Shown one piece after another: positions 41,418 through 63,573 of a stretch of 64,000 nt of DNA; the first letter of the stretch is position 1; each line of letters opens with the position of its first letter. Made by a program: the position numbers and the translations under genes. The DNA is taken from assembly GCF_002234675.1 (NCBI RefSeq), contig NC_019875.2, forward strand, positions 29,261,818 through 29,325,817, written 5' to 3'. Source of the DNA: Oryzias latipes. Taxonomy: Eukaryota > Chordata > Actinopteri > Beloniformes > Adrianichthyidae. The notes under the pieces were generated by a model that did not search any database, was not told the DNA's origin, and saw only the letters and a program-made list of their open reading frames with translations.

Positions 41418-44400
41418 CTGAAGATAAAGGTCGGAGAAGCGTGGAATGAAAACAGAAAAAGAAATTATGTTAAACATGGTCAAAATAACTAAAATTGTGA
41501 TCAATTCCTTTCAAATTAATGAGTAACCTTCTGGTGCAAAGAGGTCACTGCAGTGGACAGTTTCTAAAAACTCCCTCTCTCTTTAATTGGTTTCTGCAGA
41601 GAAACTGTACATCAGTCACTGAAGTGCTCTCCGCTGCCAAACGCCATTGAGTTCAATTCAGTGGTGAGTCGGTGTAACTGCATATCAATTTATATTTATT
41701 TTATTTATTTTATCAGCCTCCCCTGTTTCCAACTCTGGCATATCCTGTTAATTTTTCTATACTAAAAGAGCATCACTAACTAAAAGAAAAAGATGAAAGA
41801 GAATAGTATTTGTTTGAGAAACAAAAGGTAGAAAATTAGAATAAACTAAGCGTCCAATGTCCCCAAATCATGTGAATGTTTCACTGTTGTTGTGACACAC
41901 TGGAGATGTTTGTAACTTTGATTTAAAAAATCACAGTTTTGAAAACAAAAACACTTCAGAATAAAATTTTGACCTGGCGACTTCCATTCATGCGTCAAAG
42001 GGTGAAATAAAAATAGATGATAGATCACTTATTCAACTCTAAAATGAAACAATGTAATGTCTTTTGATTCAATTAAGCTGGCAAACGCTGTCTTATGAAC
42101 AAATGGGGGGGGGGGGGTATGCTGAATTCATTCATATTTACTGTAATGTCCTCTAGTAAAAAGGTTGAAGACTCATTGATGTGAGTTTTACCTGAACGCA
42201 TCATCACATCATCAACCAATAAAAGTGATTTTTCCTCTGCTTCTGAAAAAACAAATTCGTTTTAGATACATCTAAATAGCCCAAACAGACTTTTCTAACT
42301 AAATACAATTCAAAGACTGAAAAACTGCTTCTTTGGCTCCTGTGGATCAGATTTATGGCGCCAAAGCTGATGGTTTATTTCAGAATGGAAGGCTAGTCAC
42401 AAGATCATAGTTGTGTGATTTTGTATGAGGCAAAAAATAAATTAGACATAGAAATATGTCAATAGAAAAAATATTCAAAGCAGATTTGTCCCGTTCTTTG
42501 TCCTTTCCGTTTGCCAGATCAAATGTTTGCAGTTTAGAGCGTCAGCTGTGAATAAATTCAAGGAAGCTGAAAATGTAAGAAAATAAATAATTAATTTTGT
42601 TTTAACACGTGAAAACAAAAAGATAACTGAAAAGGTTTCAGTTAAAGCGATTAGTTTTACCTTTTCATTAAACATATCAAAACAAAAGCTGTTGCTTCAA
42701 TTTAAAAAAAATGCAAACATTTTCCAAAAGCCTGTTTAAGGTTGTAAAGCCTTCACTCACAGCAAAACATCACAATAAAAGAATACCTTGTTTTTAAATC
42801 CATAAAACAAAGCAGACATTTTATTCCTTGTCTCTAAAGGATCTGTTCTTTGGATTTGTTCTTACTTTGAGTTTTTTTTCTTTTTCTCTGTTCACTCCTT
42901 TCAAATTATTTTTTAAATAAAGTTAAGAATCAGATACTGCAGATTTGGTTTAATGTTTTTAGTTTGCTTTATTATTCAGTGTTCCAAGTGGGTCTGTGTG
43001 TGGTTCTTGTACCTGTCAGTGGGAGGTAACACTTACGGATTTTGGCCTGCTGTGTTGCTGGTTCCACCGTTTCCACGTACAGGACTTGAGCCGCCTGACT
43101 CGTTCTTTGGAAGCGAAAACCTCCTAATTTGAAAGCTTCTTTGCCTGCAGCCACAACGACTCCAGAGCAGAGAATGAGAGCAGCCAGACCATCCACCTGA
43201 AAAAAGGAGGACAGAAAATGACCCTTCTTACTTTAAAACCTACGTTTTATAGACTCCTTTGCCTTTAAGAACAGGTAGTGAACGTTATCCGCCTGGTCAC
43301 CCGCTGAGTTTGTGGAGCAATGCAAGATTAAAGCGGTAACTCAGTGGGTGGAGTTTTTCTTCTCTTCTGGGAATACTTTGGCTGAACACAAGAAGTTAGC
43401 AGCAGCATCCTTCAGTGAACTCTGCGTGAAATGACCTTTAAGTGAAGCTGTTGTTATCTATGGAGTGATATTTATGCCACCATGTTGCACATAAATATTT
43501 GCTTTCACATTTTTTTTTTGGTTTCAAAATTTTTTGTTTTGCTTTAAAAATCTTTATATTTCCATTTTTTTTTTGCTTTCAAATTTTATTTGTGCCTTCA
43601 AAAAATGTTTTTGCGTTTGCAACACAAATGTTTTCGTATCCGCTGTGTCTCATCTTGCTTTTTTTTTCTATCTTTTTTTTTTATCGCACAAGTTTACGTT
43701 TAGCGTGACATAGCTGCCATCAAACAGCCTGCTGATTAGTCAAGATTCTAACCAATCAGGTGTCTCTGTCTCATAGAACAGAGAAATAATAATAAAATAA
43801 TAATCAATCAATCAATCAATAAATAAAGTATAAATTATTTTTAAAATGATTAAAAATGAAAATTTCTTCAGCCAAAGAGACTAAATCAAGGGTAAAAAGA
43901 GCTGGTTGCAGACACCATGTTAGATGAATGTGTCTGGACCAATCAGCAGCTGCTTGAAGGCAGCTTTATGGAGTTAATTCAGTCTCAATAATCAGAAATG
44001 CACACAACCGGTTTTACAAATGCACACGCTCCGATTCACAAATGTCATTTTATGCAAACGTGAAAAATAAATTCGGAAATACACACCCTGTGTTTCACAA
44101 ACACACAGATTGTGTTTCACACATGCACACTAAATGTTTTACAAATGCACAATAAGTGTTTCTCACAAATGTGCACACTGTATTTCACAAAAACATTTTA
44201 GAAATTCACAATAAATGTATCAGAAATGCACAGTAAGTGCTTCACAAACGTGATTTTTAGTTACACATGTGATGTGAACTCACAGATCATTCGAACTGCT
44301 GACTGTGCATTCAAAATCCCGTTCTCGTTTGTGAATCTCCCCGTGTGTGTGAGAGATTTTTCTACGGTGAATATTGAGACTCATCTGACGGAGCGGGTCA

Positions 44401-47400
44401 ACTAATGTCACCATTGGCTAGTGAATCTGTCAATCAAACTCATCGGCAAAGCAGGCGGGTTCGCTTTTAACCAATCGAATGGCCCCTTACACTTCTCACT
44501 TTCAAAGTGACGAGGGAGGGAGCTGTTCAGCACAGCAGTTGAAAGGACGCGGGCGGCAAACATGGCGGAGAGGTCTTCTGAACGGGATCAGTCTCAGCCC
44601 GTAAGTAATGCACTTATTTGATCATTCCCTCGTTGTGCGTCCTGTAATGTTATTGAATACTAAGTTGAAGTGTTCTCCTTTGCCAAGTGACATGTGTGAA
44701 TGCTTTATGAACACTGCAGCCGAGTCGTTTGCAGAGTACCCCCACCGCAAATTAGCTTAGCTTTGTTTTGCTTAGCCTGTGCAAGTTGTGTCTGCCTGTG
44801 AGTGTGAGTGAAGTTTAAGCCGGTGTCGGTTCAAGCTAGCGTCTATAGCCAATGATCTGTAGGTTCTTAACATGATTCATAAGGAACTAAGGGGAAAAGC
44901 ATGCCGGATTTACAGCAGCAAAGAAAGTTTAATAAAAAGTATTGATTTGGAGACGGCGATTTGTTTAAACACTGATGCTATGCTATGCTAACTAGCTAGT
45001 TGTTCCGTGTGCTGCCTTTATGTAAACGCGATCCGGGTTAAAGTTAGACACAGCATTTTCACAACCCAGACTTTAAGACGGGGTGGACTGTGCAACAAAG
45101 TTAATTCATATGACATTCATGAAAACGGCATTTTTTAAATATAACAGACGTGAATCCACTGTTGAATGAAAGAAGCCTCATTAAGTTTCTAACGTTAGAA
45201 CCCGTATTGTGCTGAAAAGCCCTGTGAGATTGTGTCAGAGTGACAGCCACTAAAATCCCCGTATCTTTACTTCCAATGACGTAATGACAAGAATCCCAAA
45301 CATTATGTTTTTAGGCTGTTTTGTAGTCTATAAGTAGTCACAGAAAGGGTGGATGGGAGAAATCTGCTGTCAAAAGTGATTAGAGTAGAAGTTACTGTAA
45401 GTATTACACACAGGCTTCCTGTGATCAGAGTCTTGTCTCTGATTTTTTTAAAGGTGTTCTTTACTACAAGCTCAAGTAATCATAGCAAGAGTGTTTTAAA
45501 AAAATTCCCCTTTCATATATTTGAAAATTATGTAATTTAAGATCAGACAGCTAAATGATCTAATCCATGTTTGTTGTGTTTTTATTTATTCTCTAGGAAT
45601 TACTGAAGCGTGACAGCGTGACAATCTTTTGTTCCTTGTGCCATCAGGCAATACAACTCTCTGGCAGGGCATCTTACAAGTAATTTCTTTTAATTTTACC
45701 CACTGATTTTCCAATTATTTACCTTTTTTTATCAATCTTTTTATTTTGTGATATTTCTATTTGTAATGCATGTGTGTTTATGTGTTTTTTTAAGATGGCC
45801 ATTTTAAAAAATTTTCCTCAGGGATTATTAAATACCCTTCTATTCTATTCTATTTCATATTTTATCATCCTGTTGTATTACTGTTTTACCTGTCAATTGG
45901 GAATTTAGCATTTTTGCCGCCGTAAACATCTGTCAGTTGAAAGTATTTGTACTTGTATTCCATGTATCCTGTACCTGAAGATAGCAGAGAACAACTGTGC
46001 AGACACCCACTTGGCCTTCTTCAGTGACGCTGTGAACGTTTATGGCTTTCCTCTGAGGTATTCATGTCATTCATAAAGAAATATTTTATTCACATATCAG
46101 GCAGTATAAGTACTTGGTTATTTGTACAAAAATAAAATTACTTTTTTTAGACTCCTCTCCATAAACAAAGGCAACTCTAAAACTCTTTCCCCTCATGAAT
46201 AACATTTTACCCCCCCTTAACAGTCTCTCTCACCTCATTTTTTCCCCAGTGATACATGTAACCCACTCCTGGAATTTTTTTAACCTAGAAATTCTACTTA
46301 TTGGCATCATACATAAGAACATTACATTTTAAACTGATGTGTACCGTATTGGCGATGCATTTGTAATTATGTGTTTGAGACATGATTTTCATGTTATTGT
46401 CAGGGTGAGAGGAGATCACGGAGGAGAAAATGTGGGCATAGCCGAGTTAATGCTCACAGTACGTACAACTGACACAAACGGCTTCATTGTGGGAAAAGTG
46501 TACACACAATCAACGGTGAGTTGAACCTAGTTTTAGAAGCTTTAATATATACACAGGGCTCCAGACTGCGTCCATTTGGTCGCATTTTGCGACCAAAATT
46601 TGAGAGTGTGCGACTGAATTTTACACCCAGTCGCACATGTGCTACCAGTAAATTTGCCTCCTCCACCCTCCGTATTTTTTATACATTAAACATGAAAGGA
46701 GCACGTCAGTGATCGATGAAATGAGAGATGAAATCATCAATGAGACGCGAGCGCACACGCACGCAGGCAGACACACACACTCGCGCGAATACTCATGAGA
46801 CTGGAGCACACGCGAGCACACGCGAGCACACACTCGCGTTTCATTGAGTGATGCCTGAGGCGGCCAATGCGTCTGAGAAGAATAGGGAAAGTCACTGCAA
46901 GTGGCTAAAATATGTGGAGGGGCGGGGCCTAGAGATAATCGAGCGCGCGTAAACATCCGTGGGAAGGAAACGGAGACAAATATCATCACAACCTGATATG
47001 TGCGTCTGAGCTATGAGCAAGCGAACTATTGATTCGTTCTTCCGACCTGCAGCTAGTGTACCAGTGACAGAGTGTACAGCAGGGGTCTCAAACTCGCATG
47101 AAGTCGAAGCTGCAGCGAGACTGAAAGAGACCAGGAATTAGTTGTCCTTAACATTCAATTTCGTTTTAATATGCCTCTCCCCCTAAGTATGAACTGTGAT
47201 ATTACATCTTTTATAATTATTTTAATGTTTTGTAATGGATGTAGCCTTTTTTTAATCAGTTGGTATTTTAAATTATTTTAATTGATCAGTGAACTACAAA
47301 AAACCCATCAGGACGCATGTCCCATAATGCATTGTTTTGTAGTCTGTAGGGCAGCTTTTAGTCAGTTCAATACTAAATTTCCAGCTGCGTTCGCTCTGAT

Positions 47401-50400
47401 TGGTGTCTTGCTCTCACCCCTTTCTCGTGATATTTTTGTTTTGATTGACAGGTGATGTTGGAGCAAAAACAAAAACATACATCTCACACCAGGTGATCTG
47501 TGCAGTGTTGGGTCCATCTGGGTGATCTCAAACACGCTTATTGTGCATCTTGGCTAAACCTATTTGGTGTCACCAACATGAATTTCCATCCCCTAATGTT
47601 TACATACATTTAAGTATTGTTTGAAACTGTGAAATTACGAAAGGTTACTACGGTAATCACTTGTTACTAAAAACTTTTTTTATTCTAAATGTATGGTATT
47701 TTTTTTACTATTTTTACTTAGTTGTACTGTCGTGACAGCGATGGTGCTGTCAGTTTACCTTCATGTTGCATCTTCAAAAGTGCAGAATAAAATATGACAC
47801 TGAATTAGAAACAGCACATTGTAATTTCTGCATCTATTATTAAAGTATTTATTCGTAATACAGTGGAAATTAGTAGATTTGGTTAGAATGTTGATTTACG
47901 GTATGCGCCCCTACATTTTCTGGTTGTGCCCCTAAAATTTTCAGTTAGGGGCCACTATGCTCCTAGTGAAAAAGTTAGTCTGGAGCCCTGATACATAAAA
48001 GTGAATGATGTATTAAAAATAAATCTGACAATATAATATTTCTTTTTGCTTTTTTCCAAATACAGGATTGAGCTCCTCTGGTGTGATGTCTTCGTGAGTG
48101 TTACTGGTTTATATTACAACATCCTGCACTCTCCTGAGGACCAAGACTTTCTCAATATCAGTCACATCACATATTCTGCTGCCATTACATTTTCCTACCA
48201 CGCATTCAGGCCAGTTTGGATGTCTTTAGTGACGCGTGGGACAGCCATCCAATCAGGACGGAGCAAAGCATGACACCAAATCAGCTGTGGCAGTTGGGCT
48301 TGACCCAAAACCCTGTTTCTGATCCCCGGGTAAATGCTTTATTTAATCTCACTGTACTGGACAACTGATTTCTGTGCAGTTCGACTAAAGTGGAAAGTAT
48401 CAAGAAGAGTATCATGAAATCATAATGACTACAGTGAATTTTCATCGAAAATGAATGAAAAGGATTATTGTTGTGTGGTGCAAACAATTTCCCTAAATTG
48501 TTTGTTTGTAGGAAGAATAGCACATCTGCAAGTTCAAAATGCATCACAATGCATGGCCTTATGAGCCATCAGATGTACTAATGTCACTACTTTGTTAAGA
48601 GTCACTTATTTGCAAATTATAAACAGTTATGGAGATATGAGGTCTGCCTGCAAGCAACAATATAAGTTATTATTAGTCGGTCACTGTTCCTACATAATCT
48701 AAAACACAAAAAAACAGTGCTGTTCATAAACAGTATCTTTTTTTTTTTTTTTTGTCAGGGTGTGCTGGTTCCAGAGATTGAATGGGAGGAGAGTGGATCC
48801 ATGACTGAACCTCATCCTGGGATCAATGTCCCGGTATGGGACAGTCCTCTTTTGGGTCCACAAATGTTGGAACTGCAAGACGACATCAATCCATTGTGGA
48901 ATTCAGACCGTTTGGGAGTGGACCTATATCTTTACTGTCCCGTTTGTTTAGAACTTAATTTAGGCGACATAATTTCATACAGAAGAAGAGAGACTGAGGG
49001 GAGGAAGACAAAGTTCAAATCAATACTGCTGTATTGTTCAAGGGACTTCATTGTATGTAAGGAAGTTATGAAAATTAGTTCCAGTTTAAATAAAATTCAA
49101 ATCAGTAGAGATCCCACATTTGCTTAAATTTTGATGTTTTAATCTGTCCATGTTTTCACTGAATTTTACTCTGCAATAAAGGGTGAATGTTTGCAGTTTG
49201 TTGTTCTATGACCATCTTTTGTTGTGTAGTATTTAACCAGCTATAAAACCCAGAGAGATGAGGATCTTTTTTGCAAGGGTGACCTGGCCAAGAGGTGTAT
49301 ATGTATATGGTTACAATATAAAATAAATGACATTTGAGTTATTAAAAAAATAAAATTAAGGTCAAGCAAAGTGACTTCGGGCTGAGCAGGGGATGTGTAT
49401 TGGGTATCTGTGATTGACAGTGAGATGAACTTGAGGTAATGTAGTCCCACTGCGTGGTACGGAGCAAAGTGATGCCAGTTTCTCCACAAAACCTGTGGAA
49501 GTTGAAGATTTTTCTCCTCCACCTTCATATGATCAAAACCGTGTCTGAGTGTTGAAATGACGCTAGCATGAAAGCTAAGAGAATAACGTACAAACAATCC
49601 CGAGTGAAACATTCATTTTAAATCTCATGACCAGTACAGAGTTCGATGGATTCAATGTCAACTGCATTCAACCACTGTTGCCTTGCTTCCAGGTCCACTG
49701 AAAAGTTGCACAAGCCAGTAATTTTTGACAACCGAAGGCAATAAACCGACAAGCCATGCTAAGGCTAACACGCTAACGACCGACTGGTCCAGAATCAAAT
49801 ATGGGCGGGGCTTTTGCCACCCGCAGAAAGCGTAGAGAAAGTGTAAGGGGCCATTCGATTGGCTAAAAGCGAACCCGCCTGCTTTGCCGATGAGTTTGAT
49901 TGACAGATTCACTAGCCAATGGTGAGATTAGTTGACCTGCTCCGTCAGATGAGTCTCAATATTCACCGTAGAAAAATCTCTCACACACACGGGGAGATTC
50001 ATAAACGAGAACGGGATTTTGAATGCACAGTCTGCAGTTCGAATGATCTGTGAGTTCACATCACATGTGTACCTAAAAATCATGTTTGTGAAGCACTTAC
50101 TGTGCATTTCTGATACATTTATTGTGAATTTCTAAAATGTTTTTGTGAAACACAGTGTGCACATTTGTGAGAAACACTTATTGTGCATTTGTAAAACATT
50201 TAGTGTGCATTTGTGAAACACAATCTGTGTGTTTGTGAAACACAGGGTGTGTATTTCCGAATTGATTTTTTCACGTTTGCATAAAATGACATTTGTGAAT
50301 CGGAGCGTGTGCATTTGTAAAACCGGTTGTGTGCATTTCTGATTATTGAGACTGAATTAACTCCATACAGCTTTGTCATGCCAGACTGAAACTTATAAGA

Positions 50401-53400
50401 GCAAAAGATAGGAAAAAAGCGAAATGACACACAATGCCTGCAAAAACATTTGTGTTGCAGGCGCAAAAATGTTTTTTGAAAGCAAAAAAAAACTTTGCTT
50501 TATTTAATATATTTTATTTGCAACTTAAAAAGTTTTGTTTGCAACATGGTAGTGTAAATATCACTCCATATTTTCTCTGCTTGGACAAATTTGAACTGTT
50601 TTGATGCTGAAATGTTTTAAATTGTAAATTCAATTCAATTCAATTCAATTCAATTCCATAAAACAATAGCCCAAAATCACAACAACAGTCGTCTCGATGG
50701 GCTTCGAAGTAAAACATGAACTCAAAAGGATCGTGAATACAAAGAGTTCAATAGGAAAATACTAAAATGAACTAACAAACTGACTAAGCTATACTGGCAT
50801 CCCTGCCCTTAGACCCCCCTTCCCTGTAAGGAAAAACTCCTAAAAAAAACAGATTCCGGAAAAAACGAAGAAACCTCAGGGGTGCCCACATGAAGGAGGG
50901 ATCCTCCCCCAGGACGGACAGGCGATTTACCAGAACTCTTAGAGAAGAATTAACTTCTCTAACCCTAAAACTACATATATAAAGTCCAGCAGACGAGCTT
51001 CATCCAGCTGTGGTTGGGGAGACAGTCAGAAGCGCAAGTTGGTCTCCAAAGGTCTCCATCAAATCAACGCCTTGATTTACCATAAACATTGCTGCTCGAA
51101 ATTTAAGGCAATGATCTCTTAAGTGAAGAATTGATTGCAAAACTGTTAATTCATATCTATTTCCTAACATTTGAATTGGTTAGTTCAAAAGGGGCCCAAG
51201 TCCAAGAGGTTGGTTTTCCAGGAAATGATTTTAATTGCATAGCTTAAAGGGAGGCTACACCAAATGATTTATACTTTACCCAGATTTAGCATCAGTTCAT
51301 TGCTTACAAATGCTATAATATGAAGCACCTCACTTTTATCATTTCAGAGGACTAGCAAACTAAAGTCTCTGGACTTGGGCCCTTCTTGAATTAAACTGGG
51401 GTGCTGCCATATTGGATAACTAGTGCTGCCATCTATGGGAAAAGCTAAACCCATGCAAGAGAGGCCCAAGTCCAGGAATTTTGCACTTAATGCACTTTAA
51501 ATGTCAAGCATAGTCAATACATTACAACAGACTTGGGACTGTTTTGCACATAATCAGATAGCTTGTCACCTGAGGACCATAGAACATATAATATCTCTAT
51601 TTTGAAAAAGTTGTGGAATTGGGCCCCTTTTGAACTAACGGATTTATTCGTTTGGTGACATGTTTGGATGATCCAAACATGCCGTTGCCTTAAAAAGCCA
51701 GAAGCTTCTAAGAAAGGAAGTCCATTAAGGACACTAACAGAGGTGGCATTAAGAAGCACGATACCCCTGCAGCGGGCAATGCAATAAAGTTTTTCCTACT
51801 TTTAAGACAATGAGGAAGATTGTTTTTTAGATTGATTGCTGAAACATTTCATGCTTTAGAGCAGAAGTATGTCAGACATTGATTGTTGTGCACGTTCAGC
51901 CCCTTTACGACAGTGTGTCTGTCTTGTATTGGGACCACATCGCTCCAATCTTGGCAACCCTTCACTGGCTGCCTGTGAATTTATGAGTTCAGTTTCTTTT
52001 ATTTGTTTTTAATTCTTTAAATGATCTTTTATCACCGTAGCTCTCTGATCTTCTCTGTTCCTACATCCCAGTGCCAAAGGTCAGCTGATCAGCTTCTTCT
52101 GGAGGTACCGCGGTCCAAGAGGAAGCTCAGAGGGGAACGAATGTTTTCAGCCTGAGGCCAAAAACGCACAACCGCTGACTGTTCAGCAGCCATTCTCACT
52201 GTCCATTTAAAAAAGAGCATCTTAGAACTTATTTTTACAGCCAGGTTTTAAGCTTTTATCAGTGTTATTATTATGTCACATATTTTGTATTTTGCCATTT
52301 CACTTTTTCATCTTTTAACCTATGAGATGTTGTTTTTATATCCTCATTGGCTGAGCTGCTGCTTCAGGCTCTTCTGCCTCTGCCACTCTTTCCAGAGCTG
52401 CTGTGGTGTAAATCCATCAAAAAAACAAACATTTTATTTCTAAATGCAGGTTTTATCTTCATTGAAACCATTTTAATATTTGCTCGCCTGGGTGTGGCAA
52501 ACAGGTCCATGTAATTTTTAGAAGAATTTGCACAAGTAAAGTCTGGGATTTCCACGGCAACGGAGGTTTATCTCTAAATAACAAATTCTCTATTTGTTCA
52601 TGAGGAATCCCTCACATCCCCTACATGAGGCCTTCACCAGCAGGAGGAGGACATTCAGCAACAGACTGCTGTCCCAGCGCTGCTCCACAGAAAGACTGAA
52701 GAAATCTTTTGTTCCACGTGCCATCAGGCAATGCACCTCTCTGGCAGGGCATCTTAAAAGTAATTTCTTGTAATTTTTCTTTTTTTTTTACCGACAGATT
52801 TTTAAATTAGTAATCCATTTATTCCATTTATTTTTTAATCTAAATATATACACACACACATATATATATATTATATATATATTGAGCCCTATAAGAGATG
52901 TTGGCCCCCATTTATTTTTTTGACCATTTCTCCCGCTGTAAGTCATCATTTTTTGGCAGGGGGGGGTTGTCATTGACTAAGCCCACAATTCGTTTTCACC
53001 AGGTACTAGGTGTGTGCAAATTTTGTTGAGTTTTTGATTTTGTGGCAACAAAGACATAGTGATTTGATTCGATTTGATTCCTTTTTTTAGTGACTCAGAA
53101 TTGAGGATAATTTGTTGGGACAACCCAACCTGAAAAATATTTATGAGATCTCAAACAGGTGAAGAAGTTAAGTTCTCCCTCTTTGACGTGTCTACCGGCT
53201 CCTTCGGTTTGTCACTTACTCTTCTGCCATCGGTAGAGTAGAGCTTCAGGACCGGAAACTGCAGGATCTGGGACAGGTAATCCAGCAGAGTGTCAAATGT
53301 TGGAGCTGTTCTTCTCTGCAGCACTATGGTCCGTTTCACACTGGGATCTTTGTTCTTGATGACCACCAGCTTCCTTGGTGTCCTGACTGCCGCTCTCTCT

Positions 53401-57216: not shown

Positions 57217-59820
<2,604 letters not shown>

Positions 59821-60594
59821 AGGGCTCCAGACTAACTTTTTTCACTAGGAGCACAGTGGCCCCTAACTGAAAATTTTAGAGGCACAACCAGAAAATTTAG
59901 GGGCGCATACCGTAAATCAACATTCTAACCAAATCTACTAATTTCCACTGTATTACTAATAAATACTTTAATAATAGATGCAGAAATTACAATGTGCTGT
60001 TTGAGATTCAGTGTCACATTTTATTCTGCACTTTTGAAGATGCACCAAGAAGGTAAACTGACAAAAGCATCGCTGTCATGACAGTACAAATAGTTAAGAA
60101 AACGGATGGAAATTTATCTTTGTGACACCAAATAGGTGCAGCCAAGATGCACAACAAGCGTGTTTGAGATCACCCAGGTGAACTCAACGCTGCGCAGATC
60201 ACCTGGTGTGTGACCTATATTTTTGTTTTTGCTCCAATATTAACTGTCAATCATCACAAAAATATCGCGAGAAAGGGGTGGGAGCAAGGGGCAAACCTAC
60301 CCGGACACAGCTGGAAACTGAACTGACTGAAAGCTGCCCTACAGACTACAATACAATGCATTATGGGACATGTGTCTTGATGGTTTTTGTAGTGGAGTGA
60401 GTAATTAAAATAATTTAAAATACCAATTCATTAAAAAAGGCTACATACATCACAAAACATTAAAATAATCATAAAATCTATAATAACACATATAATACTA
60501 AGGGGGAGAAGAATATTAAAACTAAATTGAATGTTAAGGACAACTCCATCTTCCTGTTCTCCTTCAGTCTTGCTGCAGATTCGCTTTCATCTCA

Positions 60595-60623
60595 CCCCCC
60601 CCCCCCCCCCCCCCCCCCCCCCC
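60595..60623. repeat. Poly-C run
   Basis: About 28 consecutive cytosines inside hAT copy 2. Confidence 0.9.
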
Positions 60624-60958
60624 GCCTGGTGTCCCCAACGATCCAGGCGAGCCGCCGGTTCATCTCAAACACGTCTATCGTTGCATTTTCCCCACGTATT
60701 TTCAGTGTGTCTAAAACTAATGTTGTTGTTGCTCGCACGTATTTAAAGTTCAAGCCCCGTTAGCTGTCACGCATGTAGGTGTGGGACATTTATTCTCCTC
60801 AGCTGACCCGACTCCCGCGGGACGGTGTGCTGCCGTAACAACCGTGCATAACCGTTTGATGCGCCGCCGTAACCAAAACCTAAATCTTCCTCCGGTTCTG
60901 TGCGTCTCAGAGAAAAGTTCAGCACGGACTGCATGTATTTAGAAAATTACGAGCGAAT

Positions 60959-62793
60959 TCCCCCTTCCTCATATAACCTCATAATAGGGTGAGGGGGTGG
61001 GGGGCTTAGCCTGCGATGAGCCTTGGGGGGGGGGGTTTACTAGGCAGTGACCCCCCTCCTGTGGTTGCCGTATGGAGTGGGCCCCCCCTCTTTCGGTTTT
61101 ATTTGCACCTTAGACATGTAGGGCCCTTGGTAGGGGGGGTGCTTGGACATCACTGCCAGCAAGCAGCGGATGTCCTCCTAGCACCCTACCCGCCAATTTT
61201 AACCGCACCTTAGACATTTAGGGCCCCTTGGTGGGGAGGGTGAGGGGACGTCACTGTGAGTAATCAGGAGACGTCCCCTTAGTGCCCTACCCGCCAATTT
61301 TAACCGCACCCCCCTTAGTACACACACCCCTCCCCCCTCAATATATACATCCCAACATAAACACACACACATGCACACACACACTCTCTCAAACACACAT
61401 ACACGCACACACATTTTGCAAGGAAGGTGGGACCTAGGACCATCTGTCCCCTGCCTCTTCCCTGGTGGGGGGTACGGGCCCCTTTGCAACGGCGGCTGTG
61501 TCCCCGGGGTGCCGGCTTCCTGGGCCCGGCGGTGCTCTCTCCGCGCGGTGGGGGGGTTCACATTACATCTGAGCCGGGGGTGTTCGTGTCCCTGGGGGGT
61601 GGGTTCTGGTCCTTGCTCCTGAGTGCTGGGCCCCGCCAAATTTCCAACTGTGGCCGAGCCTGGTCGGGCCATATTTACAACACCCCTTGTGGGCCCTCTT
61701 TTTTCCCTGGGGTTCCCCCCTTCTGGGCGGGGGCGGCGGGCCCCTGCCTCGCTCCTCCCTGGACCAACCGTGGGCCGGGCGGATGGCTGCCTGGAGTGCG
61801 GAGTGGGTCTCCCTTGGGGGGTCCTGGCTCGTACCTGGGGTTGGGGCGGGGGGATGCCCGGAACTCCTGGGTGGTGGTGGGGTGCTCGTCTGGGGCTGTG
61901 GGCGTCCTTCTCCGGTGGGGCCCTGCGTTGGGTTCTCCCGGCGCGGCGGGGGGGCTGCTCTCCTGGTTGGGCTGGGGCGGCGCCCTCTTTCCCTCCGTGC
62001 CTCCCTGCTCTCTGGCTCTGGGGGCCTTGCGGCGGCCCTGCTGGCCCTGGCCTGGGTGGCGGGCTTGGTCGCCCGGGGGGCGGTTGTTCCCTGCCGGTTC
62101 CCGTGTGGCGTTGGGGGGATTCCGGCTGCCGCTGCTGGTGCGGTGGGGGTCTTGGGGTGGGGATGGCTGGGCACTCTCCCTCCTTCTTTTCACGTTCCAC
62201 CATCCATTTTAGAAGAACATAAACACTCACCTGAGCACAGGTGTTAGCTCAACAGACTGAATGACTGAAATATTTCACACTAGTTGGTTTTAAGGCATAA
62301 GTATGCGTGTGAACACTATCTGTTTTGTGTACATGTCGACAGGTGGACATTTTTGCAACTAACAGGTGTGTTTATAACATTTGAGTGTGTGTGTGGACAG
62401 GCTCCGCCCTTTTTTTGTTTGTTTTTTTTTTCATTTGAACCTTACCATAATGATTAACAACCAGTAAACTTGCTGCTTTATGCTGCTTCATGGTCTTATC
62501 CCCCTTCCCCTCCTATTATCACCCCCTACCCCCCCTCTCTCTAACGTCCCTCTCTCTTCTTCCCCTCTTTCCTTTTCCGTCCGGTCCAACACCAAAGATT
62601 TTCAGACATGTTTGAAACTAATAAAGTTTGGCCTCAATTACAAAAGGGGTTTATTCAGACATACCTTTGGTTTGTCTGAAGATTAATAACCCCTCTTGTT
62701 AAAGTAAAATATGTCCAACCCAAGAGGCCCTCAGCTCTCATCTGTCTGCCTAGCTGTTGGACAGGACAAGTTAAAAAAAAAAAAAAAAAAGAA
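60959..62793 (+). mobile_element. GC-rich retroelement, copy B (plus strand)
   Basis: A 1.83 kb insertion flanked by the 18-base duplication AGAAAATTACGAGCGAAT (60941-60958 and 62794-62811), with a poly-A tail just before the right copy (62775-62793). It holds two ~110 bp units at 61090-61310 ('CGCCAATTTTAACCGCACC'). The 3' 200 bases match copy A. The body (61430-62200) is over 65% G+C and opens long frames on both strands, none with a recognisable domain. Perfect duplications and an intact tail point to a recent insertion. Confidence 0.88.
61090..61315 (+). repeat. Tandem ~110 bp units near the 5' end of copy B
   Basis: Two units each run from 'TTAGACAT.TAGGGCCC' to 'CCGCCAATTTTAACCGCACC'. 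They correspond to the units in copy A at 12391-12600. Confidence 0.75.
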
Positions 62794-62819
62794 AGAAAAT
62801 TACGAGCGAATAAATTTGT

Positions 62820-63095
62820 TCTAAAGGAAAGTAAGGAACTCCTTAATGTGGTCCGGGGAGGGAGGGGGCTGTCAGGTTTCCTGCTTTCAAACCCTGTCAT
62901 TGTCACGCCCCCCAAGAGTCATATACCCCACTGTGATTGGTTGGTCAGCTCCGCGCACGACAATGAAACAGTGTCATTCATACAAACTGGCGGGCTGCAG
63001 TAACATTAAACCTTCATATTAAGGCGGGGACCGCAAAATATCGTCTTGGGGGCCGCAAATAGCCCGCGGGCCGCGAGTTTGAGACCCCTGCTGTA
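62820..63095 (-). mobile_element. Second hAT-like fragment inside hAT copy 2
   Basis: On the minus strand it starts 'CAGGGGTCTCAAACTCGCGG', a start typical of another vertebrate hAT-like repeat group. hAT copy 1 has only the first 20 or so bases at 47081-47100, so the piece was deleted there or inserted here. Right end not defined. Confidence 0.4.
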
Positions 63096-63573
63096 CACTC
63101 TGGCACTGGTACACTAGCCGCAGGTCGGAAGAACGAATCAATAGTTCGCTTACCCATAGCTCAGACGCACATATCAGGTTGTGATGATATTTGTCTCCGT
63201 TTCCTTCCCACAGATGTTTACGCGCACTCGATTATCTCTAGGCCCCTCCCCCTACACGCATTTTAGCCACTCACAGTGGCTTTCCCTATTCTTCTCACAC
63301 GCAGTGGCCGCCTCACACACAGGCATCACGCGAGAGTGTACGTGCTCGCGTTTCATGAATAGGTGCGTGAGTGTGTGTCTCTGCCTGCGTGCGTGTGCGC
63401 TCGCATATCATTGATTATTTCATTGATCATTGACGTGCCCCTTCCACGTTTAATGTATAAAAAAATACGGAGGGTGGGGGAGGCAAATTTACTGGTAGCA
63501 CATGAGCGACTGGATGTAAAATTCAAATTCACACTCTCAAATTTTGGTCGCAAAATTCGCACTCTGGATCCCT

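Follow-up and report, generated by a model that had tools for sequence, protein, structure and literature searches.

The superfamily closest to this locus is IS3EU. In the excerpts of published accounts consulted, complete IS3EU families have TA..TA ends and usually 6-bp duplications (PMC10045372), and rust-fungus families have 6-bp duplications, ends of the form TAYGG..CCRTA and arms given as 'longer than 30 bps' (PMC12730594); IS3EU is also tabulated for teleosts (PMC4746887) and for killifish (PMC12763893). No paper mentioning IS3EU was among the 10 matches listed, of 69, for IS3EU in fish with subterminal repeats, and a search for literature joining any two of rva_4, PF24764 and 'integrase core domain' found none. 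In the window (the whole stretch of 64,000 nucleotides of Oryzias latipes DNA that was analysed), the original prediction had described a single TA-flanked transposon of 7.1 kb that fitted no known type, and had named IS3EU only as an outgroup for a tree. As far as the excerpted description goes, TA..TA ends with a 6-bp duplication are those of published IS3EU (PMC10045372).

We conclude, with a probability of roughly 90%, that the locus consists of two nested IS3EU-type cut-and-paste elements, placed by the published description of IS3EU, as excerpted. The predicted complementary ends with TA were found at 43459/50570. Because a second pair of ends, at 43967/50367 (TATGGAGTTAATTC..GAATTAACTCCATA, the right end being the complement of the left), and a 6-bp repeat lie within them, the apparent new TA-flanked transposon is better explained as two nested elements of known type, with the gene in the inner one. 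Both ends of the inner element (TATGGAG..CTCCATA) are adjoined by an exact repeat, CAGCTT, whereas start offsets of 1 to 4 left a flanking repeat of at most 2 bp. The features of the two elements are as follows.

43459..50570, no strand: outer element, with ends TATGGAGTGATATTTA and complement; non-autonomous.
43967..50367, + strand: inner element, probably of IS3EU type, 6,401 bp, TATGGAGTTAATTCAG..CTGAATTAACTCCATA.
43961..43966, + strand: left copy of the target-site duplication CAGCTT, abutting the left end of the inner element.
50368..50373, + strand: right copy of the target-site duplication CAGCTT, abutting the right end of the inner element.
43967..44494, + strand: left terminal inverted repeat of the inner element, ~528 nt, 98% identical to the right arm, with 22-bp subterminal repeats.
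49839..50367, - strand: right terminal inverted repeat of the inner element, with 22- and 44-bp repeats.

The arms had been thought to be homologous over 700 bases or more. Inverted homology is indeed present, but not as one continuous repeat: it is patchy in the outer arms (37 nt at 86% and 137 columns at 75%) and reaches 98% (522 of 534 positions identical) from 43962/50372 inwards. The arms of 98% identity and the integrase-core gene belong to the inner element and not to the whole 7.1 kb unit. Once the inner element and one CAGCTT are removed, the outer element is 705 bp long. Its flanks carry no exact duplication beyond a 2-bp TA or AT, with TTATC and TTTTC agreeing at four of five positions. 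The first 100 bases of the outer and inner elements have only TATGGAGT in common, and short subterminal repeats occur in both (22 bp in the inner element and ~19-21 bp in the outer). Judging by its ends alone, we take the outer element as a putative older, non-autonomous member of the same superfamily as the inner one.

The prediction of a spliced integrase-core gene was borne out. Of four window pieces scanned, three match Pfam PF24764: one exceeds the curated cut-off, and the other two fall slightly short of it. The full-length fish relative P0068 (Oryzias latipes, 477 residues) has six matching pieces on the + strand, all inside the inner element. As predicted, a DNA transposon carries this integrase-core family.

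44562..44600, + strand: first coding exon, whose 13 residues are those with which P0068 begins; GTAAGT follows.
45966..46058, + strand: integrase-core coding piece, P0068 residues 253-283.
46399..46497, + strand: coding piece with the putative second catalytic Asp, P0068 residues 282-314; the frame is broken after 46497.
48064..48329, + strand: coding piece with the putative catalytic Glu and the helix region that follows, P0068 residues 320-409.
48756..48935, + strand: C-terminal coding piece, P0068 residues 409-468.
46554..47990, no strand: hAT-like element in the transposase intron, with complementary CAGGGCTCCAGACT ends; not part of the IS3EU element proper.

The first exon, just inside the left arm, is matched with E 0.014 when the window is searched and 0.001 when the element is searched, and 48064-48174 and 48168-48329 are read in different frames. 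Residues ~20-252 of P0068 were not found in the gene copy, including the first conserved Asp, D230, which is invariant in alignment A3. Profiles of residues 14-97, 95-200, 200-255 and 14-255, run against all frames of the window, gave a best E of 0.69, whereas profiles of residues 253-320 and 253-470 recovered the known pieces with E down to 4e-28. D287, the second Asp, and E322, the Glu, which P0068 has at a spacing of 34 residues, are both retained; by analogy with the family, D230, D287 and E322 would be the catalytic residues. Because about half of the coding sequence is missing and the frame is broken, we conclude that this gene copy is not autonomous. The original prediction mentions neither this damage nor the hAT-like element in the intron.

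A reading of ~45597-45680 as the second exon was mostly dropped: agreement with P0068 is limited to the first six residues of this piece (ELLKRD), and from 45623 onwards the sequence belongs to a repeat that recurs at 52703. The two copies of this repeat (45623-45746 and 52703-52836) are 76% alike over 135 columns, the first lying where the missing exons would be; we presume that the repeat resembles a LINE 3′ end. The hAT-like element is 1.4 kb long, and parts of it recur at 59817-60590 and 63073-63556. This second copy lies on the opposite strand, is 84-94% alike and is split by ~2.5 kb (60591-63072) that starts with a poly-C run and contains, at 61105-61310, a tandem pair of 101-bp units that are 82% alike. 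No Rfam family matched at its gathering score in the window.

All four relatives compared match the NF033577 (IS481) and NF033516 (IS3) models with E from 1.1e-10 to 2.9e-7, scores that lie far under the curated cut-offs. An integrase-type fold is predicted for one relative of the gene, and searching the PDB by sequence returned weak matches only, the best being HTLV-2 integrase (E 0.017). The family is large: 2,664 of 5,183 candidates were retained at E up to 1e-3, and among the best 120 of the 2,664 those with names are nearly all from fish. Public gene sets label such members uncharacterized or integrase-core. One relative from Labeo rohita (P0090) bears a neurotoxin name in its source, yet its listed Pfam domains are PF24764 and PF27079; this looks like a wrong automatic name. 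The locus links this large family of uncharacterized or integrase-core genes to a transposon whose ends and 6-bp duplication can be seen, which favours regarding such genes as mobile DNA until the contrary is shown.

In genome contigs, 51 pattern matches yielded three confirmed loci (L001, L002 and L003), all in one sponge-symbiont record. Their contigs, recorded as belonging to a Cycloclasticus symbiont of a sponge, encode PF24764 relatives at 47-54% identity and may be host sponge DNA in a bacterial bin. These contigs, just 3.4-4.2 kb long, contained no long inverted repeat and no TAYGG..CCRTA pair with a spacing of 300 bases or more and at least 12 of 20 matches; given their shortness, this search speaks neither for nor against our explanation. 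Viral contigs gave no match to the inner end, one pattern match but no confirmed relative for P0001, and 29 pattern matches but no confirmed relative for alignment A4. The arm DNA had no match among phages, and P0057 had none among plasmids.

The inner element shares with IS3EU and GingerRoot, as described in the excerpted sources, the TA..TA termini, whose position is fixed by the 6-bp repeat together with the junction test below, and the 6-bp duplication (CAGCTT on both sides). The inner and outer ends alike read TATGG..CCATA, which agrees with the excerpted TAYGG..CCRTA. The relatives have an IS3/IS481-related DDE transposase, and the window pieces match PF24764 and these relatives. Since ends, duplication length and an IS3/IS481-like transposase all fit the published marks, the inner element is best regarded as a new member of the known superfamily IS3EU, its long arms being a modest peculiarity. 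One alternative is that it represents an undescribed superfamily in its own right, which would have arrived at TA..TA ends and 6-bp duplications by convergence with IS3EU: its ~528 nt arms are long compared with the 'longer than 30 bps' excerpted for rust-fungus IS3EU, and IS3EU is known here by its published description. We consider this very improbable, given the agreement with published IS3EU in ends, duplication length and transposase. A related idea deserves equally little credence: that the PF24764 fish elements, which have ~0.5 kb arms and 22-bp subterminal repeats, are a lineage apart from IS3EU whose ends and duplication length are convergent.

The outer arms also provide an empty-site control, since the left arm is expected to pair with the right arm. 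We compared removals of 0, 3, 4, 5, 6, 7 and 8 bases and a TA model. With the inner element and one CAGCTT (6 bases) removed, the outer arms pair gap-free across the junction, with a score of 136. Removal of 7 bases was nearly as good (134), and lower scores were obtained with 5 (131), 4 (129), 3 and 8 (both 127) and none (123). The model in which TA is a 2-bp target duplication of the Tc1/mariner kind, as originally proposed, scored 119 and required an 8-base gap. The part of the pairing that starts at the junction and runs on into what is now the left flank of the inner element scored 41 alone; 5,000 shuffles gave no more than 33, and the 18,156 other pieces of the window no more than 27. 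Because the pairing is gap-free with 6 bases out and the TA model is gapped, we conclude that TA is part of the terminus; the inner insertion is real and its duplication is most likely 6 bp.

On the same test we reject a single 7.1 kb transposon that duplicated a 2-bp TA and has arms of 0.7-1 kb whose outer parts are just more diverged. Both outer ends do include TA, and there are patches of similarity between the outer arms, but identity leaps from 75-86% in patches to 98% exactly at the second ends, where the exact 6-bp repeat stands, and the outer homology does not stop at the insertion site but carries on to the left of the inner element; we regard that account as very improbable.

Under the preferred reading of two nested IS3EU-type elements, a small non-autonomous element with TATGGAGT ends would have landed at this site first. 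Later, as the repeated CAGCTT and the pairing of the outer arms show, the gene-carrying IS3EU-type element entered the right arm of the outer element and duplicated 6 bp. The transposase of intact relatives would bind the ends, with the 22-bp subterminal repeats as possible contact sites, cleave at the TA termini and link the ends to target strands 6 bp apart, presumably using an integrase-type DDE active site, for which the fold is predicted in a relative and the chemistry is that expected of the family. With about half of the transposase and its frame lost, the broken copy would be mobile only with enzyme from an intact copy elsewhere. The nested elements at 43459..50570 imply no new mechanism; rather, they illustrate that a nested insertion can mimic a new transposon type.

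Polintons carry many genes, for example for a polymerase and a capsid. None of these was recognised in the ten other open reading frames scanned (no Pfam match below E 0.05), although in a degraded copy spliced genes could escape. A decayed Polinton or Ginger-type element is the least credible account: Polinton, Ginger1 and Ginger2 all have an integrase-type DDE enzyme, and Polinton also makes 6-bp duplications, a length found here that is not Polinton-specific, but the ends are TA..TA, no such Pfam match was obtained, and the excerpted duplications are 4 bp for Ginger1 and 4 or 5 bp for Ginger2 (PMC10045372).

Tc1/mariner elements likewise have TA at their ends; there, TA is the duplication, whereas in the inner element it belongs to the terminus. 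IS481EU is similar in having an IS481-related DDE transposase, but in the excerpted account it is described from parabasalids, with TNT..AYA or TGT..ACA ends in place of the TATGG..CCATA seen here, terminal inverted repeats mostly <50 bp, and duplications of ~4, 15 or 25 bp in contrast to 6 bp (PMC10045372). The inner element differs from IS3EU and GingerRoot in its ~528 nt arms, its 22-bp subterminal repeats and its broken state; it is like them, as far as the excerpted descriptions go, in combining TA..TA termini and a 6-bp duplication with an IS481/IS3-related DDE transposase, and also in the N-terminal helix-turn-helix region seen in relatives of the window gene.
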